A stretch of DNA of 64,000 nucleotides from a virus: the IMG/VR virus record IMGVR_UViG_3300042320_001961, positions 1 through 64,000 of that record; one strand, 5' to 3'. The stretch's first letter is position 1, and the number at the start of each line of letters is the position of its first letter. The notes under the pieces are model-generated. The model searched no databases. It was not told the DNA's origin and was given only the letters and a program-made list of their open reading frames with translations. Positions 7,373 through 61,161 of this stretch are shown one piece after another. Both the position numbers and the translations under genes were made by a program.

Positions 7373-7381
7373 GCTTTCAAC
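7373..7381 (-). promoter_or_regulatory. GTTGAAAGC late-promoter-like element
   Basis: An exact 9-mer on the minus strand, ending 27 nt before the ATG of the 5330-7345 gene; the TGA inside it is the stop codon of the 7377-7559 gene. Confidence 0.65.
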
Positions 7382-7559
7382 TGTCCTGAGTCTTCCACCC
7401 CTCCGGGACTTCGATGTTCAATTTTTTCTCCTCTGACGAGAAGATAGGGTTATCGCCACCTGTCACAGTGGCTTCCTGCTCTTGCTCTTTACGTTTTTCA
7501 GGTTTGTCGCCAGAGACCATACCTTCTCCCCCCGCACGCGCCATATCCATGTTCATCAT
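7377..7559 (-). CDS. 60-residue P-x-G-W protein
   Basis: A tiny hydrophilic protein whose last 11 residues are 'VPEGWKTQDS' preceded by Glu, the P-x-G-W motif at the extreme C-terminus. The rest is Gly, Glu and Lys-rich and looks disordered. Its ATG overlaps the TGA of the 7556-7984 gene (ATGA), a sign of translational coupling. Function unknown. Confidence 0.7.
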   Translation of the reverse strand: MMNMDMARAGGEGMVSGDKPEKRKEQEQEATVTGGDNPIFSSEEKKLNIEVPEGWKTQDS

Positions 7560-7984
7560 GAGCTGAAAATTTCCTCTAGTAATTCATTGCTGAACTCTTT
7601 ACCGTTCTCGTTGCGGAGGAGTTCGTCCGTCCGTCTCTGCTCTTCATGGCACACTTTACTTATATCGGCCAGCATCCCCAGCACGGCAGACCTATCCCAC
7701 TCAGCGATTTCCGCCTGCTCGGACAGTTTCTGATACCGTTTAAGGATTTCTTCGAGGATCGTGAGGCTCATTTCCCTGACGGCAAGCCAGTTATTTTTTA
7801 CTTCTTGATCCTCTACTTCTTCCTGATAATGGTGGCTTTGGGATATGAGACGGATGAGACTTTTACCCACCTGCGCAATAGATTTAGGGCCGATTCGGTC
7901 CAAATCGATCTCGCTAAGCTGGTTAATAATCAGCTCTTGGGCGTCGCGTCCGAGACAAGAGAAATCGCGTAAAGAATTTCGCAT
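7556..7984 (-). CDS. unknown helical protein
   Basis: A 142-residue, almost entirely helical, acidic protein ('LIINQLSEIDLDRIG', 'MSLTILEEILKRYQKLSEQAE'). No family is recognised. It sits between gp25 and a P-x-G-W microprotein. The start codon lies only 7 nt after a GTTGAAAGC element, far closer than elsewhere, so either the message is nearly leaderless or the true start is further in. Confidence 0.65.
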   Translation of the reverse strand: MRNSLRDFSCLGRDAQELIINQLSEIDLDRIGPKSIAQVGKSLIRLISQSHHYQEEVEDQEVKNNWLAVREMSLTILEEILKRYQKLSEQAEIAEWDRSAVLGMLADISKVCHEEQRRTDELLRNENGKEFSNELLEEIFSS

Positions 7985-7991
7985 GTATCAA

Positions 7992-8000
7992 GCTTTCAAC
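7992..8000 (-). promoter_or_regulatory. GTTGAAAGC element (short spacing)
   Basis: An exact 9-mer overlapping the gp25 stop codon. It ends 7 nt before the ATG of the 7556-7984 gene, the only spacing outside 20-27 nt. Confidence 0.55.
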
Positions 8001-11735: not shown

Positions 11736-11742
11736 TTATTTA

Positions 11743-13665
11743 TTATATCCTCTCCCAGACATAATTTACACAAGTGACACGGTAACCATTAACAGAAGAG
11801 CAGGATGAGTCAGTAGCTTGATTTCTGCTGCACCTTTGGCCCTGAACCAAGGGTTTGCATTTTTCGGCCAAATCCGCTCTTACTTGGGCAGTTTGACTTT
11901 GAAGTCTGCTTGGTTTGCACGGGTCTTCAGTTCTAATCCACAGGTCGATAGCTGATATTGTCTCTTTCGTGCAACCGTGAATCCAGGCAATTACTTTGTC
12001 ATCAAAACTAACATTCTTCGCTCTATTCTCCGCTGTTATGTTTTCTATTGTCCTCAAGTAATTCTCTCTTTTACACCCGAATTCTACCCTGGCATCAACG
12101 TAAGACCCCAACTCCCTGGAGCTAGAGTAAAAATTACCCTTTACTCTTGTGAATGAGCTTCTCAGTAGAGAGATTCTTTCCCTCACCCCTTGTCTTTGGA
12201 ATAAACGTTGCCAATCTTTCCAGAATCTGTCGGACAAAAACTGATCGGCTTGGCGGAATACTTCTTGAAATTGTGCCTTTTGTCTTAAACCATAAGAACA
12301 AAATTCGGTGTCATTTTGGGAATTAGAGGCATTAGTGGTGGGCGTGGTTTTAGTTTCTTCAGTTTTGTTTTCTCCTTCGCCCCCTCCTGGTGCCGCTGGC
12401 GCAGCCGGGACTCCCACACCAGACCTGGGCAGCAGCGGGTCGTTTACCAGCGGCATTCTCCCCGGCCTGGCTATGTCAACAAACCCGTCATTAATCGTCC
12501 ATTCAGGAACTTGCTCAAGTTCAAAAGATACTTCTGCGTTGACAAGTGCTCCGGCGTCCCAGGCTCGTTCGCGGACACGTATGTTCTGGATTACGCAAGG
12601 CCCAAAAACCCTGGCTCCCCAAACAAATTCGAGTACGGGAGGTCCATCATTCCCGTTCTCACCATCCCGTGCCATGAACAGTTGTTGCAAACCTCTTTCA
12701 AGAGAATCGACCCGCTTGCCAATAACATAACCCGTCAACAAGACCTTGCCAAATATAAGCTTTCTGTTCTTATTTGATTTCCAGGACAAGGGCTGGCCGC
12801 TATTTGCCGGATCAGACACACCCCAAGTCTCAGCCCGGTTATAGTCCGGCCCGGAGTCAAGTTGCAGCTCTTCGGGGTTGAAAAGAAACTGCCATACACT
12901 TTGTGAACTTGCACCGCCGATGGATGGGGTGACGGTGCTGGGAGCGCCCGGATTCGCGTTATACACTTTGCCCCAGTCTATGGGAGGTTGATTAAGTATA
13001 GACGGGTCGATTATGCTGGGTAAAAAGTTAGATTTGGGCTGCTCGGGAGGTTTTGGTGTTGGGGCAGGAGACGGCACCGGTTGACTTTGCGAAGGCGCAG
13101 GTTGTTCCGGTACTGGTTGAACAGGGGGTGGAAAACTTTGTCCCGGGTTGTAACCTTCTGGTAGGGGAAATACTTGTCTACCTCCTGTTATAGGAGGGAT
13201 AGACGCTATAAGTCTTGAAGTCCTTTGTAACTGACTTCCTTCAAAATCGTAAGGATTTGCTTGCAGATTATTGACGGCTGAAGCTGCAGATCCCGGTGCG
13301 CTTGAAGAAGGCGAAGAAGTTACAGCGCCCGATGCTTGAGTCTTTTGTTGCGCTCCCCTTCTTGTCCAATACCTTAGACTGGCGATGCGATTTTGCATCC
13401 CCCCAGACGTACCGGCAACAAATTTAATTTTTTCCAGGTTCTGTGCTACCGAGACATGAGAACCCTTTCTGGTGACCGTATCTGATACTCCAAAGTAATC
13501 GAATTCGGGGGTAAAAAACCCCGTCCTTTCCATTAAACTCTGGGTCCCCAAAAGTCTCTCAACTATAGACGGCCTTTTTGCCTGAGGAACCTCAAGAGGG
13601 ATCTCGTCTAGGGGTTGAGAGTATTTTTCTAAATCTTTGTGATTAAGATCCTCGTACTTCGCCAC
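11743..13665 (-). CDS. CIS tube-type baseplate protein
   Basis: A 640-residue protein. The core around residues 255-390 contains 'WQFLFNPEELQLDSGPDY', 'WGVSDPANSGQPLSW' and 'EFVWGARVFGPCVIQNIRV', matching the tube/LysM-linked proteins that join tail tube to baseplate in contractile injection systems (CIS tube family). It is preceded by a Ser/Pro/Gln-rich linker (about 115-235) and followed by a Cys-containing C-terminal helical part that I do not recognise. The start is GTG at 13663-13665, 24 nt after a GTTGAAAGC element, and it leads a unit with the tape measure and gp25. Confidence 0.75.
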   Translation of the reverse strand: MAKYEDLNHKDLEKYSQPLDEIPLEVPQAKRPSIVERLLGTQSLMERTGFFTPEFDYFGVSDTVTRKGSHVSVAQNLEKIKFVAGTSGGMQNRIASLRYWTRRGAQQKTQASGAVTSSPSSSAPGSAASAVNNLQANPYDFEGSQLQRTSRLIASIPPITGGRQVFPLPEGYNPGQSFPPPVQPVPEQPAPSQSQPVPSPAPTPKPPEQPKSNFLPSIIDPSILNQPPIDWGKVYNANPGAPSTVTPSIGGASSQSVWQFLFNPEELQLDSGPDYNRAETWGVSDPANSGQPLSWKSNKNRKLIFGKVLLTGYVIGKRVDSLERGLQQLFMARDGENGNDGPPVLEFVWGARVFGPCVIQNIRVRERAWDAGALVNAEVSFELEQVPEWTINDGFVDIARPGRMPLVNDPLLPRSGVGVPAAPAAPGGGEGENKTEETKTTPTTNASNSQNDTEFCSYGLRQKAQFQEVFRQADQFLSDRFWKDWQRLFQRQGVRERISLLRSSFTRVKGNFYSSSRELGSYVDARVEFGCKRENYLRTIENITAENRAKNVSFDDKVIAWIHGCTKETISAIDLWIRTEDPCKPSRLQSQTAQVRADLAEKCKPLVQGQRCSRNQATDSSCSSVNGYRVTCVNYVWERI

Positions 13666-13689
13666 AGACCAAGTAAATGCTTATACTTG

Positions 13690-13698
13690 GCTTTCAAC
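13690..13698 (-). promoter_or_regulatory. GTTGAAAGC late-promoter-like element
   Basis: An exact 9-mer in the intergenic space, 24 nt before the GTG of the tube/baseplate gene and just after the primase stop codon. Confidence 0.65.
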
Positions 13699-13703
13699 GA
13701 TTT

Positions 13704-14767: not shown

Positions 14768-14769
14768 TA

Positions 14770-18640: not shown

Positions 18641-18871
18641 TTACACTCCAAAGAACTTGGCGCTCAGAACGCGCTGCGCTCTGACAAATTTGCGCAGAGG
18701 ATAATTCGTAATCATCGCCCATTCCAGCAAGGTCTTAGGCTTCATCTCCTCCAGGCTTAGGTTAAGACTAGGGTCAGAATCTGATACAAAGAATTTTTCG
18801 CCGTCTCGGGCGACAACAAGAAAATCGGTTTGCGTGTCAAACCGAATCGGTTTAGAAAGTTTCTCGATCAT
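18641..18871 (-). CDS. 76-residue unknown protein
   Basis: A small protein with an N-terminal beta-like part ('FDTQTDFLVVARDGEKFFV') and a C-terminal helix with several basic residues. Its ATG overlaps the TGA of the P-x-G-W gene upstream (ATGA). No family recognised. Confidence 0.65.
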   Translation of the reverse strand: MIEKLSKPIRFDTQTDFLVVARDGEKFFVSDSDPSLNLSLEEMKPKTLLEWAMITNYPLRKFVRAQRVLSAKFFGV

Positions 18872-19294: not shown

Positions 19295-19303
19295 GCTTTC
19301 AAC
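19295..19303 (-). promoter_or_regulatory. GTTGAAAGC late-promoter-like element
   Basis: An exact 9-mer overlapping the TGA stop of the 19299-19796 gene, 25 nt before the ATG of the P-x-G-W gene at 19269. Confidence 0.65.
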
Positions 19304-19816: not shown

Positions 19817-19825
19817 GCTTTCAAC
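19817..19825 (-). promoter_or_regulatory. GTTGAAAGC late-promoter-like element
   Basis: An exact 9-mer overlapping the TGA stop of the HNH gene (19821), 20 nt before the ATG at 19796. Confidence 0.65.
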
Positions 19826-26515: not shown

Positions 26516-26524
26516 ATTATATCA
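26516..26524 (-). promoter_or_regulatory. host-like extended -10 promoter for nrdB
   Basis: TGATATAAT on the minus strand, a perfect TGnTATAAT, overlapping the TGA stop of the 26522 gene and ending 20 nt before the nrdB ATG. No clear -35. This suggests early or middle transcription of the nucleotide operon by host-type polymerase. Confidence 0.6.
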
Positions 26525-27067: not shown

Positions 27068-27076
27068 GCTTTCAAC
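27068..27076 (-). promoter_or_regulatory. GTTGAAAGC late-promoter-like element
   Basis: An exact 9-mer placed just downstream of a rho-independent terminator and 24 nt before the ATG at 27043. A fresh start of transcription is needed here, which supports promoter function. Confidence 0.72.
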
Positions 27077-34624: not shown

Positions 34625-35110
34625 TCAGCTTTCAACGACTTTCGCCCACAGTACTCTTGCGATCCAAGCGGGTCGAGGGCCAAAACTACTCAGCTCGATA
34701 AGGACTTCGGCCCCTGTTTCTGCATAATCGTCTAACGAGTTTCCACTTGCCCAGTCAACCGGGTAGTCAAAGTAGGCGGAAAATGTCGTCAACGGTTCGC
34801 CTACAAATCTTGCCAGAATCCGTATTTCGCGGTAATTTCCTGGCCTGACCTGGAGCGGATCGGTGTTCGGAATGGGTAAATTGTCCGGATCGGTGATGTC
34901 AAGTTCGAGGTAGTTGCCAGCGAACAAGTTACCCGCGATCGGTTTATTAACGCAAGCGCCTCCTAACTCGACAGGGAGTCCAGACTGGTCAAAGACCCAT
35001 GCTCTGCCGTCTGCCGTGTTTGTGACAATCTCGCCTTCGTCCCCGTCCCCCAGAAACGGTTCTTCGTTCGCCAAAGGCGTACTTAAGTTCTGAATACTCG
35101 CTTCTGCCAT
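34625..35110 (-). CDS. small structural protein, fibre/baseplate type
   Basis: A 161-residue protein from the ATG at 35108-35110 ('MAEASIQNLSTPLANEEPF'). The first 40 residues, with 'DGDEGEIVTNTADGRAWVFD', follow the pattern of many phage fibre N-termini; the rest is beta-rich. A longer frame start at 35143 would overlap the GTTGAAGGC element, so the shorter start is preferred. It lies ahead of the giant fibre gene and is likely a partner of it. Confidence 0.72.
   Translation of the reverse strand: MAEASIQNLSTPLANEEPFLGDGDEGEIVTNTADGRAWVFDQSGLPVELGGACVNKPIAGNLFAGNYLELDITDPDNLPIPNTDPLQVRPGNYREIRILARFVGEPLTTFSAYFDYPVDWASGNSLDDYAETGAEVLIELSSFGPRPAWIARVLWAKVVES
34628..34636 (-). promoter_or_regulatory. 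GTTGAAAGC late-promoter-like element
   Basis: An exact 9-mer adjoining the TGA stop of the 34625 gene, 22 nt before the GTG of the giant fibre gene. Confidence 0.65.
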
Positions 35111-35135
35111 TTTAAAATAAATTCCTATACACCTT

Positions 35136-35144
35136 GCCTTCAAC
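35136..35144 (-). promoter_or_regulatory. GTTGAAGGC element, minus arm of divergent pair
   Basis: A one-base variant of the 9-mer on the minus strand, 25 nt before the ATG at 35110, two bases away from the plus-strand copy. Confidence 0.6.
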
Positions 35145-35146
35145 GA

Positions 35147-35155
35147 GTTGAAAGC
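35147..35155 (+). promoter_or_regulatory. GTTGAAAGC element, plus arm of divergent pair
   Basis: An exact 9-mer on the plus strand, 20 nt before the TTG start of the first gene of the plus-strand baseplate unit. Confidence 0.68.
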
Positions 35156-42300: not shown

Positions 42301-42485
42301 TTATTCCGGATGGGACTGTATTCCCCGAAGGGTCTTCGCTACCAACAGGTGTAGCACTACCGTCCGGGACTTTACTACCAGCCGGTACTGTCTTCCCGGA
42401 CGGGTTCGTATTCCCCGGGCAAGAACGCACTTCACTGTACGAAGAGTTGAAAGCGAGGGAGAGCGGAGAAACCGACTGTGAATAA
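39366..42485 (+). CDS. gp5-like hub/spike protein with OB fold
   Basis: A 1039-residue protein. Residues about 25-100 form a gp5/VgrG-type OB-fold ('AVIIDVNDPKRLGRVKVTTD' then 'KWIPV', 'GSNVLVGKTNG', 'YVIGIV'). A long Gly/Ala-rich helical region (about 340-660) resembles a tape-measure-like or membrane-active segment, followed by a Cys cluster ('GNCPCDPKCRKVAHG') that could bind metal. Residues 974-1015 are seven six-residue repeats of the form [LIF]-P-x-G-x-x, suggesting a narrow beta spike. It therefore combines hub and tip features. Position after gpI-like and before terminase fits baseplate assembly. Confidence 0.78.
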   Translation: MSEFFKHAGVMARAQSRIVETLGVPFADPFNEEAVIIDVNDPKRLGRVKVTTDDGFTSKWIPVSGSSSGTLSSRYIGSNVLVGKTNGRSENMYVIGIVKNDKDVGLNGSPFQLPIIDESMAVWNGSSDPGMTCNRENEGRTYILSNEINQDVVVCLRRSSPQVGNKPAWAWKSLTNGLWIEKGINPGNETTIPIEQAQLRNPGIPECTESLLGEKHDFSEDRGFRTTSMVCRRDENGEFGWIPESSPPVFFRTTLPTCSEKLHGMEAVVDDGNNSEIVKCLRYQGLMRWVKEGKRLPHKFHKKDKPLTKVEFLDGYGPVPALEEGGFDWLKEPEIIETVFDTVISNIPLTNTDPALRNALQLAGLLPAQAFNGAQVLSTAAREAMNRRLGVPVDTLTNTLRQEIDRDGKLSFETAQLLTGIGDAGRVLTNGVVGGAVDQALVNIGQNALRNSLLSLSPQTASVMTGLMSGGVWGAIDTATILGLSKLPPEVNKYVQPVVGIARNVLAGYPTALGNILNTASGGGLTAAVSGTFNSLLGRNAITPQILSSTASLIGGGALGPMGQMFNQFSNLAGMPMAPGALGSLPFLASTAMGALGIGNAVQSLFGGLGGGIGFNGLAALIGGGFNPISTALFGIGALSSLFGGAGGNCPCDPKCRKVAHGVDTDGQKLLDPCGALTSVNANAYCPTGFCLPNNVGDVAFDLGLTPTLVGKNLIPPNTSDLTQMIYGSQRLVNMAEKFYESRYADEAEKEAEFAYTFENVEKGFKMADNNITRIESVERRLIDSGYNTLQNIFWKPGPETAILEQLITDVRENSQALQSIYRFVKALDLAKDGPRVGVSVTPSIGLALANIPGLAGLYEKNKIETTKIMEGGIKPAHLEWETMTPGLGTPVKLGLYNPPLPIVFPNERTLFDEARFLSISLDSKIVDDLQENKPPIDQVLSPNQINTLKNTFIQRAGDASPTSGGTVTQDLPLPEGFVIPDGTVFPEGSSLPTGVALPSGTLLPAGTVFPDGFVFPGQERTSLYEELKARESGETDCE
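42285..42410 (+). repeat. seven hexapeptide repeats in the gp5-like protein
   Basis: Seven in-frame 18-bp units encode LPEGFV, IPDGTV, FPEGSS, LPTGVA, LPSGTL, LPAGTV and FPDGFV, then a partial FPGQ. Hydrophobic, Pro and Gly positions are fixed while codons vary, so the repeat is under protein-level selection. Confidence 0.9.
42446..42454 (+). promoter_or_regulatory. GTTGAAAGC element within the gp5-like 3' end
   Basis: An exact 9-mer on the plus strand, inside the last codons of the gp5-like gene and 23 nt before the GTG start of terminase, matching the usual spacing. Confidence 0.5.
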
Positions 42486-44097: not shown

Positions 44098-44430
44098 ATG
44101 GAAAAAGAGACCTTTTTAAGAAAAGTCGTACTCTTCGTACAGCCCGGATGCCCCGCTTGCGAAGCTATGAAACCGATTTGGGGGCAAGTGGCCGGAGAAG
44201 TATCTGAAGAATACCCAGAACTGCGTGTGGGCTGGGGAGAATACGACGTCACTGAAGATAACTGGGAATTTCTTGAGTCTCTTAAGCCGGGAACTTCCGG
44301 GCAAGGAACTCCAGAAATCGCTGTTTTTGACGAAGAGTGCGATTTGATCGGGTTTAACGGTGAAGGCATTATGCCCGCTTCGCAACTTAAAAGCTTCGTG
44401 ATCAACTCGATTAAGGGAGGCAGAGCCTGA
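44098..44430 (+). CDS. thioredoxin-like protein
   Basis: A 110-residue thioredoxin-fold protein with the active site CPAC (C18-C21), a following helix, and 'QGTPEIAVFD' carrying the cis-Pro strand. Thioredoxin-like proteins reduce disulfides, for instance in ribonucleotide reductase, or act as folding factors. AGGAG lies 10 nt upstream of the ATG. It overlaps the sigma-factor start by one base (TGATG). Confidence 0.85.
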   Translation: MEKETFLRKVVLFVQPGCPACEAMKPIWGQVAGEVSEEYPELRVGWGEYDVTEDNWEFLESLKPGTSGQGTPEIAVFDEECDLIGFNGEGIMPASQLKSFVINSIKGGRA

Positions 44431-45155
44431 TGACCACGCAAGGTATTAATGTCGAGCTGAGAAGGGAGAGGCTTAGGAATAATTATAATCGGAGGAAGAC
44501 GGAGTACGAGCGGACTCGCGATTTTCACATCCGGGAAAATATGTGGAAAGCGAGTTATGCCGCTAGGAAAGTGGCATCGTTTTCTGGTGTTCCATTTGAT
44601 GAGTTGAGGTCTGTTGCCCTTGAAGCAATGGTCAAACTTTATGACAAGTGGGACCCGGAAAAAGCCAATTTCAGTACTTGGTTAAATCGCTCGTTGACTT
44701 TTCAGCTATTGAATTATTTGCGCGATAACTCGCGAATGATCAAGATACCCCGATCGTATTCAGACGCTTATATGAAAATGAGGAGGATTGTGGGGCGGAA
44801 CCCAGACCTCACTGACGCGCAGATATCTGAAGCTACCGGTCTGACCGAATATCTTATAGCCGAGACGCGTGAGGCGTTTCAAATGACGTATTTGGAGATT
44901 AACGAAGAGACGGAGATGCCAGTTGATGACGGGGGGATTGATGACGATAATCTCGCCTCGATGTTTAGCGATTACGGGGATATTATAGGTAGGCTTTCGA
45001 AACTTTCCCCAGAAGAATACACATTTCTAATGGATGTTTACATTCACAAAAGAGCTGTGTCAACTATCTATCGTAAGAACCCGGGGATTAATAGTGCGGA
45101 GAAGATTGCAGCGAGGACGGACGAGCTGCTTAGCAAACTTATGAGTGATGGGTAA
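44430..45155 (+). CDS. phage sigma factor (sigma-70 family)
   Basis: A 241-residue sigma-like protein. Region 2 is clear: 'FDELRSVALEAMVKLYDKWD' followed by 'FSTWLNRSLTFQLLNYLRDN' and 'MIKIPRS', which binds the polymerase clamp and the -10 element. Region 3 is 'LTDAQISEATGLTEYLI'; a region-4-like C-terminus is weak. A short sigma dominated by region 2 suits a -10-only late promoter, as with T4 gp55. The many GTTGAAAGC elements are candidate targets; that link is inference. Confidence 0.82.
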   Translation: MTTQGINVELRRERLRNNYNRRKTEYERTRDFHIRENMWKASYAARKVASFSGVPFDELRSVALEAMVKLYDKWDPEKANFSTWLNRSLTFQLLNYLRDNSRMIKIPRSYSDAYMKMRRIVGRNPDLTDAQISEATGLTEYLIAETREAFQMTYLEINEETEMPVDDGGIDDDNLASMFSDYGDIIGRLSKLSPEEYTFLMDVYIHKRAVSTIYRKNPGINSAEKIAARTDELLSKLMSDG

Positions 45156-45861
45156 GTCGATATATACGGAGATTGGCGAGCAGCAATACAATAAAAAACA
45201 GTTCGCGGAGAGATGGAAGTCTATTACTTCATCTTATGAGACAGGTGTCTTTTTTAACGAAGAGGACACCCTGTTCATGAGGCAAATCTGTCTCAAGATT
45301 GAAAGGTTCAGGAAAATATTGCTAAGGCCTGGACAGTGCAAGTTCAAGCTCACAAGCAAAGAGTTTAATGGTCGCAAAGTCAAGGGTGTAGTCTTGATGA
45401 CACCCTCGTCTAAGTACGAAGTATGGGTGGGAAAATCGTATGTAATGTCGAAAATATTTCCGAGAACTTATGCCCCCGACCCGGCCAAGGAGAATAGAAA
45501 ACTCGCGATCCGCGCATTACGAAATATTATCCAACCGCAAATCGATCTTTATAAAAGACGAGTCTCGGGTCAAAATGTTGTTAAATCGTCGTTGACAGGC
45601 AAGCCGATACACGGAGCGTATCATGTCGATCATGTCTATCCGTTTATACGGCTTGTCGAGGAATGGTGCCGGGACAATTCTCTAGACCTGGAAACAATAC
45701 CCGTCAAATGTGTGGGTGTCACTTGCCGTCTATCTTGCATCAAGATGTCAGAAAGCTGGTTTGATTACCACGCTTTGAATGCGCAGTACCAAGTGCTTGA
45801 CCCGAGGGAAAACATCATCAAAGGTGCGAAATACTATGGCAAGTCTTCAGACAATATTTGA
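45148..45861 (+). CDS. HNH-like nuclease (DUF3223/DCL-type)
   Basis: A 237-residue protein. The segment 'SLTGKPIHGAYHVDHVYPF' followed by 'LVEEWCRDNSLDLETI' matches the HVDH-type core seen in DUF3223/DCL-like proteins of phages and plants, thought to be HNH-related. The ATG at 45148 overlaps the sigma-factor end by 8 nt. It may be a homing-type nuclease or an RNA/DNA processing factor; the assignment is moderate. The 3' end overlaps the convergent gene at 45834-46352 by 28 bp. Confidence 0.65.
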   Translation: MGKSIYTEIGEQQYNKKQFAERWKSITSSYETGVFFNEEDTLFMRQICLKIERFRKILLRPGQCKFKLTSKEFNGRKVKGVVLMTPSSKYEVWVGKSYVMSKIFPRTYAPDPAKENRKLAIRALRNIIQPQIDLYKRRVSGQNVVKSSLTGKPIHGAYHVDHVYPFIRLVEEWCRDNSLDLETIPVKCVGVTCRLSCIKMSESWFDYHALNAQYQVLDPRENIIKGAKYYGKSSDNI

Positions 45862-50158: not shown

Positions 50159-50890
50159 TCATGCCACTTCGATAACCACAACTAACGCGCCGGATCCTTC
50201 ACCGTCACCCTGGCCGGGTTCGGTTGTATCGATCTCCAGACTCAAGATATCGCCGACGGCAAAGCCGTCACCGCCGTCCAGGATGTCGGTAATCTCGGTC
50301 ACAGAACCGTCCACAATCGTCCCCTCGAGCGAGGCGTCTTCGTACTGAGCAGGATCGTTTTGTTCACCGACCTCGAGATAAGCTCGGAACACAACACCGG
50401 TCGCATCGCCTCCGTCTAGACCGTCAACCGTATAGTTTTCACCACCGTCAAGTACATCGCCTAGGGAGACAAGCGGACCCACGGGAATGACATTCTGCGT
50501 GATTTGGGAAAGCGTTGCGGAAAGGTTATACACTGCTACCATAAAGTGATAATCTCCCTCACCAGCGATTCCCACGTACCTTGTAATATTCACAAGCTGA
50601 TCATTGAGCTGGTTCTCGTACGGATCCGTCACAACATCCGGATTCGCAACCAACGCGTCCACCACCAGTTCCAAGACCCCATACGCGAATTGCTTGGCCG
50701 AGAAGCCCATGCTAGGCCCGCAAGTGTTGTATTTTTCCAGCAGTTCCGAGCGAATTTCAGGGGTGTTCCCCGTCTCATCGTACTCGTTGACAAGTTTATT
50801 CTGCAAGACGGTGGCAAAAAAATCTCCGAGCGAAGCTTTGTACTCAAACTCGATGCCAACAAGCCTTTTTAATCTAGCGATTGTAGCCAT
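50159..50890 (-). CDS. structural protein ahead of the tail hub
   Basis: A 243-residue protein. The N-terminal half is helical ('GDFFATVLQNKLVNEYDE', 'QFAYGVLELVVDALVANP'). The C-terminal half has two copies of a DGG-containing beta unit ('VLDGGENYTVDGLDGG' and 'ILDGGDGFAVGDILSLEI'), a type often seen in cyanophage virion proteins. It leads a unit with the tail hub and has a GTTGAAAGC element 26 nt upstream. Probably a tail or baseplate component. Confidence 0.7.
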   Translation of the reverse strand: MATIARLKRLVGIEFEYKASLGDFFATVLQNKLVNEYDETGNTPEIRSELLEKYNTCGPSMGFSAKQFAYGVLELVVDALVANPDVVTDPYENQLNDQLVNITRYVGIAGEGDYHFMVAVYNLSATLSQITQNVIPVGPLVSLGDVLDGGENYTVDGLDGGDATGVVFRAYLEVGEQNDPAQYEDASLEGTIVDGSVTEITDILDGGDGFAVGDILSLEIDTTEPGQGDGEGSGALVVVIEVA

Positions 50891-50916: not shown

Positions 50917-50925
50917 GCTTTCAAC
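50917..50925 (-). promoter_or_regulatory. GTTGAAAGC late-promoter-like element
   Basis: An exact 9-mer overlapping the TAG stop of the 50925 gene, 26 nt before the ATG at 50890, heading the tail-hub unit. Confidence 0.65.
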
Positions 50926-51248
50926 TAAGAAACCCGCACCTTGAGGGCGCTTCCCGTGCGGTACATGCCTCCGACTGGGACGGGAGGAGTGGCGGCAGCG
51001 GCAGCGGTATCGTCAGCGAATTCCCTAAGGCCGGTAAAATCGATTTGGGAGAAAGGGATGACGTCCTGCTCGCCTACACGTCTTGCAACTCCATCCGCGC
51101 CGACATAAAAGATCTGGGCCTTCGGCTCGTTAAGAAACAGCTCTCCGCGTTTCACATTGGCGGCATCATCGTCATACAACGACTGCACGTAGCTTTTAGT
51201 TTTGTTCGGGTCGGATGAAAACCGAACACCCCATCTCGGTCTAGGCAT
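50925..51248 (-). CDS. small fibre-type structural protein
   Basis: A 107-residue protein. The end 'FADDTAAAAATPPVPVGGMY' followed by 'RTGSALKVRVS' resembles the C-terminal segment common to cyanophage fibre and short structural proteins. The middle has 'ELFLNEPKAQIFYVGADG', a fibre-like beta pair. Single-gene unit with a GTTGAAAGC element 20 nt upstream. Confidence 0.7.
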   Translation of the reverse strand: MPRPRWGVRFSSDPNKTKSYVQSLYDDDAANVKRGELFLNEPKAQIFYVGADGVARRVGEQDVIPFSQIDFTGLREFADDTAAAAATPPVPVGGMYRTGSALKVRVS

Positions 51249-51268: not shown

Positions 51269-51277
51269 GCTTTCAAC
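51269..51277 (-). promoter_or_regulatory. GTTGAAAGC late-promoter-like element
   Basis: An exact 9-mer in the divergent space between 51248 and 51315, 20 nt before the ATG at 51248. Confidence 0.66.
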
Positions 51278-51999: not shown

Positions 52000-52016
52000 A
52001 TTACCTGGAAAATTCA

Positions 52017-52766
52017 ATGGCTAAAGCGCGTACAAGGCGAGAGAAGGTCACCGAGTCATCAGTGCCGGGATACGATGAAATTGCTTATGGGATCCCTGCA
52101 GGGCGGGGAGACGGCCTCAGGACGATCCACCCTGCGAATGACAGCCAGCGCGAAGCTTTGGATTATTTGCGAAGCCGAACTCTTACTATTTTAACGGGTC
52201 CCCCGGGGACGGCTAAAACACTTCTCTCCGTCTTCATTGCTTGCGAAAAACTTCAAAAACGGCAAATCGATAAAATATACTATGTCAAACCGATTGTCGA
52301 TACGCCCGGTGAAAAAGGTATTGGTTATTTGCCAGGCAACGAAATGGAAAAGCTCGAGCCGCATATTGCATCGCTAAGGGACGCGTTAAGCGTGTTTATG
52401 GCGAAAGGGAAGGCGGATTACTTGATTGATAAAAAGATTATCGAGTTTTTGCCCATTGAACATTTAAGAGGTCGGTCGCTGCACCGTTGCATGGTAATTG
52501 CGGACGAGATGCAGAATGCCACTGCGCATAGCGTGCTGACTATTCTCTCTCGACTTGGCGACCATAGTTCTATCGCGTTACTCGGTGACGTGATCCAGCG
52601 CGATTTAGCCAATAGATTTGGAAAGGACGGTCTGAGCGATGCGGTTCACAGACTGTCTAAACTCGACGAGTTTGTCGGTTCAGTGGAATTCCAAATCGAT
52701 GATATTGTCCGCTCGGAATTTGTAAAACAGGTTATTTTGTCGTACCGCGATTTGTACGAGAGCTAG
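52017..52766 (+). CDS. phoH: PhoH-like ATPase
   Basis: A PhoH-family P-loop ATPase of about 249 residues with Walker A 'LTGPPGTAKTLLS', 'YYVKPIVDTPGEKGIGYLPG', Walker B 'MVIADEMQNAT' and the sensor 'IALLGDVIQRDL', all standard for the family. phoH is very frequent in marine and freshwater phages; its role in infection is not settled and may involve RNA or phosphate stress. I choose the ATG at 52017 over a GTG at 51984 that lies inside the terminator region. Confidence 0.92.
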   Translation: MAKARTRREKVTESSVPGYDEIAYGIPAGRGDGLRTIHPANDSQREALDYLRSRTLTILTGPPGTAKTLLSVFIACEKLQKRQIDKIYYVKPIVDTPGEKGIGYLPGNEMEKLEPHIASLRDALSVFMAKGKADYLIDKKIIEFLPIEHLRGRSLHRCMVIADEMQNATAHSVLTILSRLGDHSSIALLGDVIQRDLANRFGKDGLSDAVHRLSKLDEFVGSVEFQIDDIVRSEFVKQVILSYRDLYES

Positions 52767-52956
52767 AGGGGGAGGATTGCTGTGTCGGAGAAGGAAAAAA
52801 AAGAGCTGCTGTAAACATCCACCTATCTGTACAGGCATTAACTTGCTTAGGCCCTATGGCCCAGTTAGGTATTTCGCAAAGGGCGATAAACGCTAGGCAG
52901 AACAACGCCTCGAATATAAGGAAAGCTAGTCCCTCTGTTAACCTAATTTTTTCCAT
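52732..52956 (-). CDS. small membrane protein
   Basis: A 74-residue protein with a membrane helix at residues about 9-30 ('GLAFLIFEALFCLAFIALC') and a shorter hydrophobic patch near 47-54; the tail is Ser/Thr/Pro-rich. It has a GTTGAAGGC element 23 nt upstream, one arm of a divergent pair. The 3' end overlaps phoH by 35 bp on the opposite strand. A real gene is likely but not certain; function unknown. Confidence 0.5.
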   Translation of the reverse strand: MEKIRLTEGLAFLIFEALFCLAFIALCEIPNWAIGPKQVNACTDRWMFTAALFFPSPTQQSSPSSSRTNRGTTK

Positions 52957-52979
52957 CGGTTGTACGCCCTGTATACTAA

Positions 52980-52988
52980 GCCTTCAAC
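52980..52988 (-). promoter_or_regulatory. GTTGAAGGC element, minus arm of divergent pair
   Basis: A one-base variant of the 9-mer on the minus strand, 23 nt before the ATG at 52956 and five bases from the plus-strand copy. Confidence 0.58.
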
Positions 52989-52993
52989 TCCGA

Positions 52994-53002
52994 GTTGAAA
53001 GC
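52994..53002 (+). promoter_or_regulatory. GTTGAAAGC element, plus arm of divergent pair
   Basis: An exact 9-mer on the plus strand, 20 nt before the ATG of the 1017-residue virion protein. Confidence 0.68.
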
Positions 53003-53022
53003 TTTTAGAGAATACCTTTTTA

Positions 53023-56000
53023 ATGGCAACTAGGATAGATAAGACTCCGGGGTTGTCCCAGACTCCGCAAGACGCGATAATTCGGTCGTTGAGGTCAAAG
53101 GCCGGTAAAAGAGAGCAGAGAACGGATTTTATAGGACTTAAACGATCAAATTCTCTTTCCGATGTTTCTGACCCGCGAAAAGCCTTAAATAATACACTCG
53201 CTAAACTTAACGAAGGGGATGTAGAAGAGCAGGAATTTTACAATTCCCAGTATGATTCGTCAGACTGGGCGGTCACAAAAGACTTCGCACTCGAAGGGAT
53301 TACTAAGGACGCGTTACTCCCCTTGCTGGGGGTGTCAGCCCAAGACGGGGTTGTAAACCTTAATCCGCGTATAAGGATCCAAGACAGAATTTCCCAGGTA
53401 GATTCTTTTTCCGGTATAGACAGTTTTAACAGCCTGCATGCGGGACCCTCAGCTCAATTTTACAGAGTAGCAAAGCTCCAAGTAATAGGCTTTTTAAAAT
53501 TCGATTTTAATACTGTAACCGGAGAGATTACAGTAAACGAACTTAAAGGCGTAGACGGGGTCACTGATCTTACTGACGAAGAAATTTTGTCAGGTAGAGG
53601 GTATGTTATTCTACTTGTAGAGTGGTATGAGTTAGAGAATGGACCTAAGGCTGATTTGTCTGGTACAGGTATCTACTTGAGGGTGGACAGTGAGGACGGA
53701 TGGAGTGTAGAAGAAGGCCTTAGTAGTCTTACTAGCATAAGGAGTATACTCGGAAGTTTAAGATTTTCCCAAAGGCCTTTTAGGTTGGGCAGAGGTTATT
53801 CCAGTATTAATCCGCCCCCGTGGTTCTCTGAGTCTCCCAGTACCGGTATTCCGGATACAGTCGAGAATTTGATTAGAAAACCCTCTGGCGATCCTGTTGT
53901 CGAAAGAGGTTACTGGTATTCTAAGGCGGTTATTGAAAGTCGCTGGAGCGCCGAAGAAATACGTCAAATAGGGGCTCCTACGGGGGAAGTTATTGTTCAA
54001 GACTCAAACATGAGGTGGGAATCACCCCCGAACCCACTAAGATTTGAAACAGGAGACTGGGGAATTAGATGGGACGGGTATCTTTATATCACTCCAGGAA
54101 TATATTCTTTTCAAGTAGAAACGAATTGTCTCGTAAAAATTGATGTTTATCTGGACGAATGGACTGAAGTTTTTAGCTCAGGTGTGCCGAGTTCGGAAAA
54201 TTCTAAGTACTTTTCTGCTACCTCTTTTGATGTAAACAGTATAGATAATAAGTTTAAGTATTTCTACTCGAGTACGGAGTGGGAAGCTTATATGCCTATT
54301 ACTATCCGCATGTATGTTGGGGGGACTGACAGGTCCGAACCGTCTGTCATAGTGCCCACCGAGCCCAACATTTTCCTAAAAACTACAAAACTTCAAGATC
54401 CGGTTAATTTTTACAGCGAGCTGATAGACATAGAGTTGGAGGAACTTAGTCCGGGGGAATTTGCCATATTTTCTGATGATTTAGTCAGTATACTGATCCC
54501 AGTTGAGGATGAGTACGCATCTGTCAGTTACGAGCTTGTTGAGAAAGACGGCCAGGCCTTGGGTGATCCGATAGTTGTGGAGATTAGTGAAATTGGAGTT
54601 ATAACCGATCCGGAATTGGAAGAAGGCGAATATAAGTTGAGGATTTTTCCCGTCTTGAGCGAGGAATTTGAAGATAATCTCGAGCCGCTGTGGAGGGGGA
54701 GGATAGCTTCACCGGGAGAAGGGAGAACGTCTTACTCGGATTTGGTAAGTGGAGATTTTACCCCGAACCAGCAAAAAATACCTTTTGATTTCAGGCCGAG
54801 TTGGTGGAAAGTCTCCCAAGGTCATCCGTATGACAGGAGCTTAGCCCTTTCTCCCAGTAACACACCTTTTGACGGATTCGCATCCAATATATTTAAAGAC
54901 GAGTTTAGCTCGGGAGCAGACGGATTCGGATTGTACGGAGACGGAGATAATAACTATACTCAAAGACCTAATATTATAATGGGAGAGTCAAAGTATGAAG
55001 AATCTTCACCTAAGGGTAGTAATTATATCGGGATCTCTTTGAGTTCGGATAGATTTGGAGAAGGCGGCAGATTTATCGCTGACGCTTTCCCCCTCAATAA
55101 TTCTGTATTCGACGACCCGGGCCTGCTAGGCGAGAACGAGCTTGGCGGGGACCCCAATCACAAGACCTCCGCGTTTGGTAAAGTAACCCCTGAAGTGGCT
55201 CAGATATATCTTTGGACTACTGGGCCGGAAGAACTTCAGGGTAAATATTTCTTGTCTGTAGATTCTGCGTCCGTTACTTCTGACGACGACCCTGAGCTAT
55301 ATGGACTCCCCGACTTCTCCTCAAACGAATGGCTTTCTCCTATATCGATATCTGCTGTTCAGGTGTGCGATAACTCGGACTTTGAAGACTCTAGCGTAAA
55401 GAAGTTTCCAGCCGTACTACCAATACTTTTAGAAAAAGTAGAAGTATCCGGGTTTACAGTAATCTTGTTCTCTGTACTTCTGCCCTCCCTATTGCCGGAG
55501 GGTTCTGAAGTCTCGCAGTTCAGCGGCAAGTTCATCAGGTTCTATACAAGTAATAGCAGAGAGTTTCAAAATACACTTGTAGATACAGGGGAATCTATTT
55601 GTTTCTCCGATGTCATTAAGTTGACTTATGACAACGACGATAACCTAATACCGTTTCAAAGTGAGATTCCCCAGGCTCTTTCGGAACGTGTAACCCCGTT
55701 TGGATTTGATGGCATATCCGGGATATGCTACCCGCCCTACATAGTGTCCGATCCTTTGTTAAAGGATACAGCGATTGGGGATGACGATCTTTACGACGCG
55801 CCAGCGGGTTGGTATGACGTGTTTTGGGGCGACCCGACCAAGGCCGGATTGGGAGGTAAAACTTTAACCCTGAGTAGAAGTCTTGAATTCAGAGGCAAAG
55901 ACGCTGTAGAACTCATTATAACACCAGTTAATTTCAGTTTCTCTCTTTACTCCCATAAGTTCAGAGTAGATATGCCTCTGGAAGCAGAGGACTATGACGA

Positions 56001-56076
56001 GGATGTCTTAACCTATCTGGGGAACGGTGAGCAAGTCTCTGACACTTACTATTTGTTCGTAAACTTGCCCAATTAA
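53023..56076 (+). CDS. large virion protein with PA14-like region
   Basis: A 1017-residue acidic protein. Around residues 340-450 the pattern 'FETGDWGIRWDGYLYITPG' then 'YSFQVETNCLVKIDVYLD' and later 'MPITIRMYVGG' resembles PA14-type carbohydrate-binding beta domains. The rest is beta-rich, Ser/Asp/Glu-rich and not recognised. It is likely a fibre or tail-decoration protein. It converges on and overlaps the 56073-57608 gene by 4 bp. Confidence 0.72.
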   Translation: MATRIDKTPGLSQTPQDAIIRSLRSKAGKREQRTDFIGLKRSNSLSDVSDPRKALNNTLAKLNEGDVEEQEFYNSQYDSSDWAVTKDFALEGITKDALLPLLGVSAQDGVVNLNPRIRIQDRISQVDSFSGIDSFNSLHAGPSAQFYRVAKLQVIGFLKFDFNTVTGEITVNELKGVDGVTDLTDEEILSGRGYVILLVEWYELENGPKADLSGTGIYLRVDSEDGWSVEEGLSSLTSIRSILGSLRFSQRPFRLGRGYSSINPPPWFSESPSTGIPDTVENLIRKPSGDPVVERGYWYSKAVIESRWSAEEIRQIGAPTGEVIVQDSNMRWESPPNPLRFETGDWGIRWDGYLYITPGIYSFQVETNCLVKIDVYLDEWTEVFSSGVPSSENSKYFSATSFDVNSIDNKFKYFYSSTEWEAYMPITIRMYVGGTDRSEPSVIVPTEPNIFLKTTKLQDPVNFYSELIDIELEELSPGEFAIFSDDLVSILIPVEDEYASVSYELVEKDGQALGDPIVVEISEIGVITDPELEEGEYKLRIFPVLSEEFEDNLEPLWRGRIASPGEGRTSYSDLVSGDFTPNQQKIPFDFRPSWWKVSQGHPYDRSLALSPSNTPFDGFASNIFKDEFSSGADGFGLYGDGDNNYTQRPNIIMGESKYEESSPKGSNYIGISLSSDRFGEGGRFIADAFPLNNSVFDDPGLLGENELGGDPNHKTSAFGKVTPEVAQIYLWTTGPEELQGKYFLSVDSASVTSDDDPELYGLPDFSSNEWLSPISISAVQVCDNSDFEDSSVKKFPAVLPILLEKVEVSGFTVILFSVLLPSLLPEGSEVSQFSGKFIRFYTSNSREFQNTLVDTGESICFSDVIKLTYDNDDNLIPFQSEIPQALSERVTPFGFDGISGICYPPYIVSDPLLKDTAIGDDDLYDAPAGWYDVFWGDPTKAGLGGKTLTLSRSLEFRGKDAVELIITPVNFSFSLYSHKFRVDMPLEAEDYDEDVLTYLGNGEQVSDTYYLFVNLPN

Positions 56077-57608: not shown

Positions 57609-57610
57609 TT

Positions 57611-60600
57611 TTAGGGGTTTACCAAGTCTTCCGGGTCTAATCCGGCATCGATGATAGATTGGTACCTGGTTGTTACGTCTTCGTAACGCACTAAAGTGAT
57701 TATAGAGGTAGTTGCTGGAGAGATGTAAGCAAATCCTAGGTCTACTCTTACCCCAAAGAGATTTTTGAACGCTATGGCTTGTGCGCTTTCGACTGTAACC
57801 TGAGTCTCGTTAATTCTTGTTTTATAGTATACACCTTGAATTAGTTCCCCCGGAATCTGAACAATACGTGTCCCAACAATATTCTCCACTTGCACCTGAT
57901 TACCGTTCTCGTCGAATTGATTAACTGTTTCATATACATAAAACTCTTCGTCTCTAAACAGTGAAGTTATTATGTCTCCTCCCTTGCGCACTTGGGTGGG
58001 GAATATTTCAGACTGTGAGTAGTTTATATATTTTCCGTTAGAATCTAGTTTATTAAATCCTACTCTCACAAAACAATTTCTAAATCTGCCTATCAAATTT
58101 ATTTGTATAACATCTGATATAATAGCCCTTATGGCTTCTATGGACAAATTGTTGTAGGACAGATTAACAGTGATGTTCCTGGAGTTTCCTAGGAATACTT
58201 TGAATAAACAACCGGGGACATAGGACGTTATGTTGTTTTCGGATAAGTCTAGAAAAACGACACTGCTAAACCCAGGCAAAATATTCAAGGATCCCGAAAG
58301 CCTACAATTCTTGGCCCGGAAAGCTACTAATTTTGAAAAACCAGAGGAGAACCAATTTGTTATGTTGACAGTATTTCTAAAAAAGTACAAAGTTGACGGC
58401 AAAGTGTTAGGTATATCTCTGTCTATAATAATTTCCGTAGAGCTTACGGACAAAACTCGGGCTATTTCCGGACCATTTACCTCTCCCTTAATGACATCAT
58501 TCACTAATACTTTAGTATTAAAATTGCTTGCGCCAGTAATTGTATAAATATTATCTTTTTCCTCCCAAGCGTTTCCAGGTGTCTGGATTACTCGGGAAAT
58601 AGATAGGCCGGATATTTCTGTGTATGAATCGTTGTTCCTTATCGCTGCGCCCCTGGATTGCGGTAAAAACCAATTAGAGGGATAGGTACTCCTTAACGAA
58701 GAGTCCAGTATCACAATCGATATCTGAGAGTCTACTACACCCTCGAAAGATGGCAATAGGGCCCCACCTCTTGAGGCGTTTTGACCATTACAGTCTAGAT
58801 AGGCCAGATCTCTAGAGAAAAGAGGGTTTATAGGGGTAATAGATAGGCTCCTGAGGTCGTAAAAGCTAGAAAACTGTGTAACTACAGAAAGCACTTTAGT
58901 GTTTAATTCTGGGTTAGGCCTGGCAGAAATAGTTGGAAATCTGCCAGTGAATCCAGAGTTAAATGTCCCGAAGTATGTTAGTTCTCTCAGGTTAATAAGG
59001 TCTTTTTCCCTGAATCTAAACTGTTGCTGTATAAACGGTACGCTTAGTGTGAGTAGTTTGTGTGGAGATCCCGAAGCCCTTTCGGGTGCAAAATTTTCAG
59101 GTAAAAAGTAGTCAATACCGTTTTTAACTACAGGGGTAATTTGCCGAGAATTATATAACTCTATTGAAGTCAGTTCTCCAGTGTTTTCAGTAGAAGAATC
59201 CCCTAGTGAAAACATTTGACCCCCGAGTATAGACCCGTGCAAATCAATAGATCGGAGTGCCGGTGTACGAAGTGGAGCGGATGAGTTTGAGATATTTAAC
59301 GAGTTTGCACATCGGACGGCTAAAAGCTCCCTCAAAGATTTCCAAGTATTATTTTGTATGTTAATCGTAGTCCCGGTGTCAGAAATATCAATGAATGTGG
59401 AATTTAAGTACCAATTACTCCAGTCCTCAGCAGGATTTCCTATAAAGCCTGTAATATTATGGCGCCTGTCAGAAAATCCGGAGATATTGAAAGACGTCAT
59501 TCTATAATTCGAAATATGCCCCGGATCTGATGGGTTTGTAGATGTACCTATGTCATATATTGTCCCTGATGCACCTGAACCAGAAATGTTGTACTGAGTC
59601 AGTCCGCCCGTGTTTTTAATCGACGGTAATTTTTGGCCGGAAATGAAGGCTGTTAGTCCGCGAGTATTAGTGTTCCATTCCAGTACCCTTAAGTTGGGGA
59701 AAACATCACTTAAGTTGGAATTAAGTCCCCTGAATCTGTCCCCGAGGTAAAGTTCTTGTAAATTTGTAAATTGGCGATAATCAACCCCGGCAGTCCTGCT
59801 CTCGTTTAAAATATATTTCTCAAATTTTTCATCCGCCCAATCATCCCCGGCGCTGTTTATCATCGGCCCGCTTTTGGGGATTGTTAAATAGCTTACTACT
59901 GTATAAATGGGGTGATTGAATGAGGGGACAGCCCCTGAATTCCTGACATCGAACCAGGACATCGGACCTGATTTCCAAGTGTCTCCGCTGTTTTTAAGAT
60001 CGAGTACCCGGAGCTTGTTAGGGAGTGTTTTTAACCAGAGTGGCAGGATCGTCATCGAACCTCCGGACACTCTAAGTTCCTCGAGGTTGTTAAACCCTAT
60101 AAGGCCAAGGTCTTTTTTGTCAGGAGTTTCTCTGATATCGATACCGTTGAACTCCAAGCCTTTGACTTTTTCTGGATTCAGGTAAAGATACAGGTACAAA
60201 TCGTATACCAGTTGATATCCAGTACTCGTGATATCTATATCTAAAGTGAACTCGTTTGTACCTGAGGGTTGAGAAGATGGTTCTACTTGTAAAAAGTCTA
60301 CAAATTCAGTATTAGGCCTTTGCTGGACAACTTGCACTTGGTACCCGTAAAAATTAATTAACGAGTCAGTGAATTTAAATTTTATACTACCCCTGGAAAG
60401 TCTGCAAAATATCTTGAGTGGGGAGTTTTTAGTGGCCAGTAATTTCAAAGGTGTTACTGGTTGCCCAGGCCCGTTAATGACACTGAGCTTAAGGGTGTGG
60501 GAGGGAGACTCAGGGACGGAAGACTTCCGGACGAAAGAACCCTCGGGGACAAAAATTCTATTGACATGGGACTTTCTGCGTACGCGGACAGACCCCGGAT

Positions 60601-61132
60601 ACGAAGCGTTTTTGAAGAACCCAGGATTATCCTCGTCCAAGTTGGAGCTGAAAAGACTTGAGCGGGATGTCGAGAGGGAAATTAGTCTTTTTTCTGGGTT
60701 TTCGAAAAGACTTTCGGAAAGTACATTAGCGCGGTAAAAAGCACCTTCGCACTTTATGCCTCCGTTAAAAATTATTACATTCGGACGGTTTAGAGCATTG
60801 GAGCCCGTAACACCCAAGGTGTACTTAGGCGAAGCGTATAGCTTGTCAACCTCAAGCTCCTCAAGGATTCGATCTCCTGATATATTATCAATTCTATGCA
60901 GGGTCGAAAGCAGGAAGGAAGATAGACCGGAGACCGACCTAAGATCCTCTCTACTAATAGTTTCAGATAACTGATAAATTTGGTCAAGAGATTCAGGATC
61001 TAGAAGTATATTTCTTAACGCGTTTCGCTTGTCCGACTCGAAGATTTCGGAAAGGTTTTGAAACCCGTCGGAAATCAGCCCGATGTCTGGGCGAGAAAAT
61101 TGTCCAAATCCCCTAAAAACCCCTTCGGACAT
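57611..61132 (-). CDS. leucine-rich-repeat virion protein
   Basis: A 1173-residue protein with irregular leucine-rich repeats, for example 'GFNNLEELRVSGGSMTILP', 'FTNLQELYLGDRF', 'FPNLRVLEWNTN', 'LRSLSITPINPLFSRDLAYL', 'FSKLVAFRAKNCRLSGSL' and 'FSSVVFLDLSENNITS'. Such repeats form curved protein-binding solenoids. The flanking sequence is beta-rich and resembles the neighbouring virion proteins. A GTTGAAAGC element lies 20 nt before the ATG at 61130-61132. A receptor-binding or host-adhesion function is plausible. Confidence 0.78.
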   Translation of the reverse strand: MSEGVFRGFGQFSRPDIGLISDGFQNLSEIFESDKRNALRNILLDPESLDQIYQLSETISREDLRSVSGLSSFLLSTLHRIDNISGDRILEELEVDKLYASPKYTLGVTGSNALNRPNVIIFNGGIKCEGAFYRANVLSESLFENPEKRLISLSTSRSSLFSSNLDEDNPGFFKNASYPGSVRVRRKSHVNRIFVPEGSFVRKSSVPESPSHTLKLSVINGPGQPVTPLKLLATKNSPLKIFCRLSRGSIKFKFTDSLINFYGYQVQVVQQRPNTEFVDFLQVEPSSQPSGTNEFTLDIDITSTGYQLVYDLYLYLYLNPEKVKGLEFNGIDIRETPDKKDLGLIGFNNLEELRVSGGSMTILPLWLKTLPNKLRVLDLKNSGDTWKSGPMSWFDVRNSGAVPSFNHPIYTVVSYLTIPKSGPMINSAGDDWADEKFEKYILNESRTAGVDYRQFTNLQELYLGDRFRGLNSNLSDVFPNLRVLEWNTNTRGLTAFISGQKLPSIKNTGGLTQYNISGSGASGTIYDIGTSTNPSDPGHISNYRMTSFNISGFSDRRHNITGFIGNPAEDWSNWYLNSTFIDISDTGTTINIQNNTWKSLRELLAVRCANSLNISNSSAPLRTPALRSIDLHGSILGGQMFSLGDSSTENTGELTSIELYNSRQITPVVKNGIDYFLPENFAPERASGSPHKLLTLSVPFIQQQFRFREKDLINLRELTYFGTFNSGFTGRFPTISARPNPELNTKVLSVVTQFSSFYDLRSLSITPINPLFSRDLAYLDCNGQNASRGGALLPSFEGVVDSQISIVILDSSLRSTYPSNWFLPQSRGAAIRNNDSYTEISGLSISRVIQTPGNAWEEKDNIYTITGASNFNTKVLVNDVIKGEVNGPEIARVLSVSSTEIIIDRDIPNTLPSTLYFFRNTVNITNWFSSGFSKLVAFRAKNCRLSGSLNILPGFSSVVFLDLSENNITSYVPGCLFKVFLGNSRNITVNLSYNNLSIEAIRAIISDVIQINLIGRFRNCFVRVGFNKLDSNGKYINYSQSEIFPTQVRKGGDIITSLFRDEEFYVYETVNQFDENGNQVQVENIVGTRIVQIPGELIQGVYYKTRINETQVTVESAQAIAFKNLFGVRVDLGFAYISPATTSIITLVRYEDVTTRYQSIIDAGLDPEDLVNP

Positions 61133-61152
61133 CGAAAACTCAAATCTTAAGA

Positions 61153-61161
61153 GCTTTCAAC
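61153..61161 (-). promoter_or_regulatory. GTTGAAAGC late-promoter-like element
   Basis: An exact 9-mer overlapping the TGA stop of the 61157 gene, 20 nt before the ATG of the leucine-rich-repeat gene. Confidence 0.65.

Follow-up and report, generated by a model that had tools for sequence, protein, structure and literature searches.

A probable single-element late promoter, and the phage sigma factor that may read it, in a relative of TIM5-like cyanophages

How are the late genes of this virus switched on, and by which protein? The question is raised by a nonamer, GTTGAAAGC, that recurs ahead of genes in IMG/VR virus record IMGVR_UViG_3300042320_001961, of which positions 1 to 64,000 (the window, 64,000 nucleotides (nt) long) were the subject of a preliminary description. 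We consider it probable that GTTGAAAGC is a single-element, -10-type promoter of late genes, read by a sigma factor that the phage itself encodes (44430-45155). The positions of the element, its enrichment, its co-occurrence with one clade of this sigma factor, and its conservation ahead of the same genes with one base changed were observed directly. The preliminary description lacked the sigma gene, a family-wide second form of the element (GTTTAAAG) and the one-base difference between the two forms, which together make up most of the evidence. Its proposal of a strand-specific, -10-only, late-promoter-like element is supported by the placement of the copies relative to genes, their enrichment before virion genes, the lack of a strong upstream box and the presence of the phage sigma gene.

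Results

A strict element placed before genes

The 13 exact copies of GTTGAAAGC and the two copies of GTTGAAGGC named in the preliminary description were all found in the window at the positions given for them. Dinucleotide-shuffled versions of the window held a mean of 1.04 exact copies of GTTGAAAGC (maximum 4), and 0/100 reached 13. Words with at most one mismatch number 39 in the window, the 15 sites included, against 29.8 expected (6/100 shuffles reach 39); because one-mismatch words are near the chance level, the element is strict. The full record of 85,161 base pairs (bp) holds 21 exact copies, eight of them outside the window, and the reversed word occurs at 0 places in it. An unbiased motif search of upstream regions, a check that had been suggested for the element, returned GTTGAAAGC as the top motif near the starts of 70 called genes, with a log-likelihood of 120.6 in this record and 32-38 in three shuffles. 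Gene starts here and in all relatives except the cyanophage S-TIM5 are simple calls, made on the longest open frames with start candidates taken from their initial part.

Nearly all copies face a gene, as had been claimed: 22/23 sites of the degenerate form GTTGAARGC in the record are followed, 12-75 nt downstream, by a called gene in the same orientation, and the backwards control CGRAAGTTG occurs at one place, likewise upstream of a gene. The spacing from motif end to start codon was also as reported, with 14 of the 15 window sites at 20-27 nt and one at 7 nt, and the start codons served include GTG and TTG. A mask of positions 22-60 nt before called starts covers 3.9% of the record and contains 17/21 exact copies of GTTGAAAGC (binomial 5e-21). 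The sites of the window, the proposed reader of the element and the gene overlapping it are as follows.

7373..7381 (-), GTTGAAAGC, 27 nt before the gene 5330-7345(-)
7992..8000 (-), GTTGAAAGC, 7 nt before the ATG of 7556-7984(-); the spacing outlier
13690..13698 (-), GTTGAAAGC, 24 nt before 11743-13665(-), an S-TIM5 virion ortholog
19295..19303 (-), GTTGAAAGC, 25 nt before 18868-19269(-), function unknown
19817..19825 (-), GTTGAAAGC, 20 nt before 19299-19796(-), function unknown
27068..27076 (-), GTTGAAAGC, 24 nt before 26522-27043(-); a terminator-like hairpin lies directly ahead
34628..34636 (-), GTTGAAAGC, 22 nt before 28447-34605(-), a tail fibre ortholog
35136..35144 (-), GTTGAAGGC, before 34625-35143(-), with the ATG 25 nt past the motif; back-to-back with 35147
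35147..35155 (+), GTTGAAAGC, 20 nt before 35176-36180(+), a virion ortholog
42446..42454 (+), GTTGAAAGC, 23 nt before terL, 42478-44058(+), followed beyond terL by the sigma gene in the same orientation
50917..50925 (-), GTTGAAAGC, 26 nt before 50159-50890(-), a virion ortholog
51269..51277 (-), GTTGAAAGC, 20 nt before 50925-51248(-), a virion ortholog
52980..52988 (-), GTTGAAGGC, 23 nt before 52732-52956(-); back-to-back with 52994
52994..53002 (+), GTTGAAAGC, 20 nt before 53023-56076(+), a virion ortholog
61153..61161 (-), GTTGAAAGC, 20 nt before 57611-61132(-), a virion ortholog
44430..45155 (+), phage sigma-70-family factor of 241 amino acids, region 2 clear and region 3 weak; the proposed element reader
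45145..45861 (+), protein of 238 amino acids, function unknown, overlapping the end of the sigma gene; a possible partner

Genes served by the element

Judged by its homologous terL, adjoining sigma gene and shared virion blocks, the record is related to the TIM5-like cyanophages (Aurunvirus relatives). Among phage records, the cyanophages S-TIM5, S-TIM54, S-TIM61 and S-TIM66 are closest both for TerL (58%) and for the sigma factor (SigF; 39%), and the record and S-TIM5 share 51 reciprocal best hits in matching gene blocks. Marine Synechococcus is the host of S-TIM5 and its isolates. In the phage collection no megablast match was obtained for the window's first 25 kb, and a sigma-profile scan of genome contigs for a host link returned one weak hit (Spirosoma endophyticum, 30%) and no link.

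For S-TIM5, all 212 coding sequences were counted with the starts and labels given by the depositors: exact GTTTAAAG lies within 75 nt upstream of 17/47 virion and packaging genes and of 8/165 others (p 1.6e-7). Where a gene has a divergent neighbour or 20 nt or more of space, 16/26 virion genes carry it compared with 8/85 others; among genes packed behind a same-strand neighbour the counts are 1/21 and 0/80. The record follows the same division, with GTTGAARGC before 14/23 orthologs of S-TIM5 virion genes, 1/24 other orthologs and 7/31 genes without an ortholog. The view that the genes served in the window are virion or otherwise late-type genes holds only in part: 8/15 are orthologs of S-TIM5 virion or packaging genes, six have no ortholog there and one matches a hypothetical gene. 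The companion claim leaves nucleotide-metabolism and lysis genes outside the set; it is true of the exact word, and the orthologs of phoH, nrdB, primase and flap nuclease in the record are without GTTGAARGC upstream. It does not extend to the other form, as a GTTTAAAG word stands upstream of both nrdA and the endolysin gene, 43 nt before a possible start in the case of nrdA. The word ahead of the endolysin gene (2665-3954), GTTTAAAGC at 3993-4001(-), is of the sister-clade form defined below and stands 47 nt before a possible start.

A phage sigma factor encoded beside terL

The product of 44430-45155 matches PF04542 (sigma-70 region 2; 7.8e-8) and PHROG 351 (8.2e-15). Its predicted fold (mean predicted local distance difference test (pLDDT) 74.5, predicted template-modelling score 0.40) aligns with sigma domain 2 (8b3z; 79 residues at 1.7 A, Z 12.5) and, less closely over ~120-145 residues, with domains 2 and 3 of further sigma factors; the C-terminal helices at 175-239 are barely covered by the structural alignments. 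A Pfam scan of 39 relatives found region 2 in 39/39 and a weak region 3 in 11, and no region 4 among the 25 of 34 Pfam families listed. The sigma gene lies downstream of terL at 63/75 terminase loci; nine of the 12 loci without it end within or shortly after terL, and three are distant terminases (27-28%). Since terL and the sigma gene both follow the motif at 42446, the sigma factor may boost its own expression.

Two forms of the element in two sigma clades

Seventeen further contigs were analysed whole together with S-TIM5, and G002, G012, G019 and G020 by pattern counts only (relatives are cited as G numbers and loci as L numbers); whole contigs were used because de novo searches on single loci of 9-24 kb were too weak for most distant relatives. 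The unbiased search recovered GTTGAAAGC in all five genomes with a close sigma factor (this record, G001, G003, G004 and G005), which amount to about four independent genomes because the sigma factor of G001 is 99% identical to that of the record. A GTTTAAAG-type motif was recovered in S-TIM5 and in nine of the sister clade's 13 environmental genomes, in G008 only weakly. The two forms differ at base four. Genes preceded by GTTGAAAG (GTTG) outnumber those preceded by GTTTAAAG (GTTT) by 86 to 10 in the five close-clade genomes, whereas the counts in the 14 sister-clade genomes are 14 and 165. A later scan added 17 loci with sigma factors 58-67% identical, two of them from contigs already included and some nearly alike; 15 carry 3-9 copies of GTTGAARGC. 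The 22-60 nt mask holds 58/77 exact copies of GTTGAAAGC in four close-clade genomes and 130/193 copies of GTTTAAAG in nine sister-clade genomes. Median distances from motif start to start codon are 32 nt (n=79) and 35 nt (n=159), respectively, in a count restricted, apart from edge effects, to distances of at least 22 nt, so that the sites of the record at 14 and 16 nt fall outside it.

The difference is found ahead of the same genes. At orthologous promoters the fourth base is G in the record and T in S-TIM5 in 10/10 cases. Against the 13 other sister-clade genomes, 76/78 pairs are G/T and 2/78, both in G016, are G/G. When the partners are G003, G004 and G005 of the close clade, 36/38 pairs are G/G, one is G/T and one is T/T. 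Presence of the motif before orthologs is correlated (p < 0.05) in 12/17 genomes. Base composition was considered as the cause of T rather than G and rejected, as the sister-clade loci L039 and L043 (57% G+C; G010 and G011) still use GTTTAAAG. The A that follows the switched base is nearly invariant, one-letter variants in the sister clade lying upstream of genes in 1/30, 1/45 and 0/26 cases.

An unrooted tree of 45 sigma sequences separates the two motif sets with support 100/100; its labels were assigned by clade, because sites are scarce in many of the short loci. Sigma residues 88/90/92 are S, T or N, and Q in the G clade (22 sequences) and C or N, Q or N or H, and H in the T clade (37 sequences), and differences fixed between these 22 and 37 distinct sequences include residues 85, 88, 90, 92 and 103. 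A -10 element has a flipped-out A, and region 2.4 of sigma-70 reads the -12 pair; the near-invariant A fits the flipped-out A, and the switched base would then be expected near -12. We tentatively suggest, as one possible account, a natural lineage-wide change of sigma specificity, in which the late regulon uses GTTTAAAG in one lineage and GTTGAAAGC in the other, base four and sigma region 2.4 residues 88/90/92 having changed together, with no -35 contact and perhaps with help from the protein whose gene overlaps the end of the sigma gene.

Flanking bases, divergent pairs and a proposed mechanism

No strongly conserved positions were found upstream of the motif and none at positions 20-26 downstream, so the layout of a canonical sigma-70 promoter was not recovered. 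Divergent back-to-back motifs with gaps of 0, 2, 5, 8, 9 or 11 bp form 16 pairs in 10/19 genomes, and such gaps leave no space for a fixed upstream box. Position 14, counted from the first base of the motif, is a purine in 97% of close-clade sites (n=79) and follows T in 68%. Sister-clade sites have a purine at position 14 in 57% and at position 15 in 69%.

In the mechanism that we propose, the host RNA polymerase core with the phage sigma factor would read GTTGAAAGC, mainly through region 2 and probably through the start of region 3. The element would be melted and transcription would begin ~14 nt downstream of its first base (5-6 nt past its end), giving leaders of roughly 13-22 nt. On both strands it would serve many operons for virion components and packaging, as well as some genes with no assigned function. 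GTTGAAAGC would then be the local form of a TIM5-like cyanophage promoter whose other form is GTTTAAAG, and sigma factor and sites would have diverged together, so that base four is G here as against T in the sister clade.

Weighing the alternatives

Several observations weigh against the promoter reading or limit how far it reaches. We infer the promoter role, the sigma factor as reader, the start site and the late timing from sequence. The agreement between sigma clade and motif counts as one event, whatever the number of sites that changed, because the sigma tree holds one split, and other genes split in the same way as the sigma gene; fixed differences are spread along the whole sigma factor, so the candidate specificity residues serve as leads only. 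The de novo search gave other patterns and missed GTTTAAAG in 4/13 sister genomes (G009, G010, G015 and G017), in which exact copies lie upstream of genes in 6/11, 10/15, 5/9 and 8/16 cases, respectively, and the backwards control in none. L183 (10.9 kb) and L184 (7.1 kb), the two shortest loci of the later scan, have a close sigma factor and no copy of GTTGAARGC. Concordance of the motif at orthologs was not significant in 5/17 genomes (G007, G013, G008, G009 and G015). The sister clade partly tolerates G at base four, with 11/53 copies of GTTGAAAG lying upstream of genes. G016 (L140-L146, sister clade) has GTTTAAAG at 17 genes and GTTGAAAG at 5, possibly reflecting relaxed specificity, and a second sigma gene sought in this mixed-site genome was not found, a single one being present. 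With the weak purine preference of the sister clade, sequence does not define the start site in that group. In the record, two sites stand 14 and 16 nt from the called start, too close to allow a leader, and an exact copy is missing from 30/47 virion genes of S-TIM5, as is to be expected inside operons.

One alternative is a reader other than the sigma factor. It is improbable, in our judgement, that the motif is the site of another phage regulator, an activator recruiting the host polymerase together with a host sigma factor, although any regulator that co-diverged would give the same pattern across a single sigma split, the gene of an uncharacterised protein runs over the end of the sigma gene in relatives, and the T-A-G-A enrichment at positions 13-16 in the close clade could belong to a host -10 box. 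That enrichment does not extend to a TAnnnT box spanning 13-18 (T is present at position 18 in only 13%), the 4 nt between motif and TAGA are short for an activator plus a -10 box, and the phage-encoded sigma factor would be left with no sites. Nor does the motif look like one half of a two-part promoter, namely a -35-like box with a weak -10 further down, an arrangement that we regard as very unlikely. Its letters do recall known -35 boxes (TTGAAA resembles TTGACA, and TAAAG resembles the sigma-28 -35), and some S-TIM5 sites have, by eye, AT-rich TAGATAAT-like stretches 6-8 nt downstream. However, no T-rich box occurs at the usual spacing, and spacings of 34 nt or less, found at 68% of close-clade and 48% of sister-clade sites, would make transcripts start inside the gene at these sites. 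Region 4, which reads the -35, was moreover not recognised in the 39 sigma relatives among the 25 of 34 families listed.

The narrow spacing to the start codon, the coding-strand orientation and the scarcity of Shine-Dalgarno-like words in the record (14/63 genes) would suit a signal acting in RNA, for translation or for processing of the leader. Such a signal should be needed just as much before tightly packed same-strand genes, where the motif is nearly absent (1/101 in S-TIM5); the frequency of Shine-Dalgarno words with and without the motif was not significantly different in 9/9 genomes, and the divergent back-to-back pairs, with gaps of 0-11 bp, suit promoters, which leaves this explanation highly improbable. 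A single-element promoter read by the phage sigma factor is the reading that we carry forward.

Comparison with known systems

The late element of T4 is TATAAATA, and T4 needs gp33 and the gp45 clamp. The upstream motif here is GTTGAAAGC or GTTTAAAG and not TATAAATA, in agreement with the preliminary description. T4 gp55 is a small sigma factor, so diverged that it resembles others in domain 2 alone, and acts at simple promoters of late genes (PMC2988020). PhiEco32 gp36 is described as a sigma factor without region 4 that uses the single element tAATGTAtA, with starts 6-8 bp downstream (PMC8948821). Both the record and phiEco32 thus pair a phage sigma-70-family factor with one conserved element upstream of middle or late genes; the element and the phage family differ, and the starts and sigma dependence established by experiment in phiEco32 are here proposed from sequence. 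Phage 7-11 also has a sigma factor, gp47, with late promoters upstream of virion operons, which have the two-part form GTAAtg-(16)-aCTA, unlike the single element here. S-TIM5 (Aurunvirus) shares terL, the adjoining sigma gene, the virion blocks and the same element bar one base, but has GTTTAAAG where the record has GTTGAAAGC, and the sigma factors are 39% identical. In T7-like phages the polymerase and the whole promoter set have diverged together; there the enzyme is a single-subunit phage polymerase, with no sigma factor on the host core. The cyanophage Ma-LMM01 is reported to be without a phage-specific promoter motif.

A literature search gave no report of the GTTGAAAGC or GTTTAAAG element, a prior description in the S-TIM5 genome paper being possible, and the literature searched yielded no account of late-gene activation in TIM5-like phages. 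The kind of system is known from phiEco32 gp36 and, arranged differently, from T4 gp55; what seems to be new is the element itself, together with the single base by which it differs throughout the two lineages. The two clades amount to a natural experiment, in which sister sets of phages have the same genes and largely the same promoter places, with sigma factors that presumably read elements one base apart. The joint change of a sigma factor and many sites, and the residues that set specificity, are directly testable in the TIM5-like family, and the two forms might serve as separate promoter-sigma pairs in laboratory cyanobacteria.

The overlapping gene and further observations

Orthologs of the 45145-45861 protein directly follow the sigma gene in relatives (70 open reading frames), and the protein is a possible sigma partner. 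Its predicted structure (pLDDT 88) has invariant H159, D161 and H162, and its best fold match in the PDB is 2k0m (E 9e-3, target TM score 0.77 over ~112 columns), which names no function. Identification as a known co-activator was rejected, as the protein gave no PHROG hit, one Pfam match far below the cut-off and no PDB sequence match.

The terminator reported ahead of 27068 is present as CCCCGG-loop-CCGGGG-TTTTCTTA. General coupling of the element to terminators was rejected, with a perfect hairpin within 50 nt at 2/23 sites and at 60/4000 random positions. Two gapless divergent pairs, at G004:C1:22804-22821 and 39693-39710, each form a perfect 18-bp palindrome; at back-to-back copies such as a gapless pair, simultaneous use by two polymerases would be impossible. 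The nrdA ortholog at 21538-24564(-) encodes 1008 amino acids, compared with 636 codons in S-TIM5, and its best profile match covers residues 446-946, so that an insertion or intein is possible.

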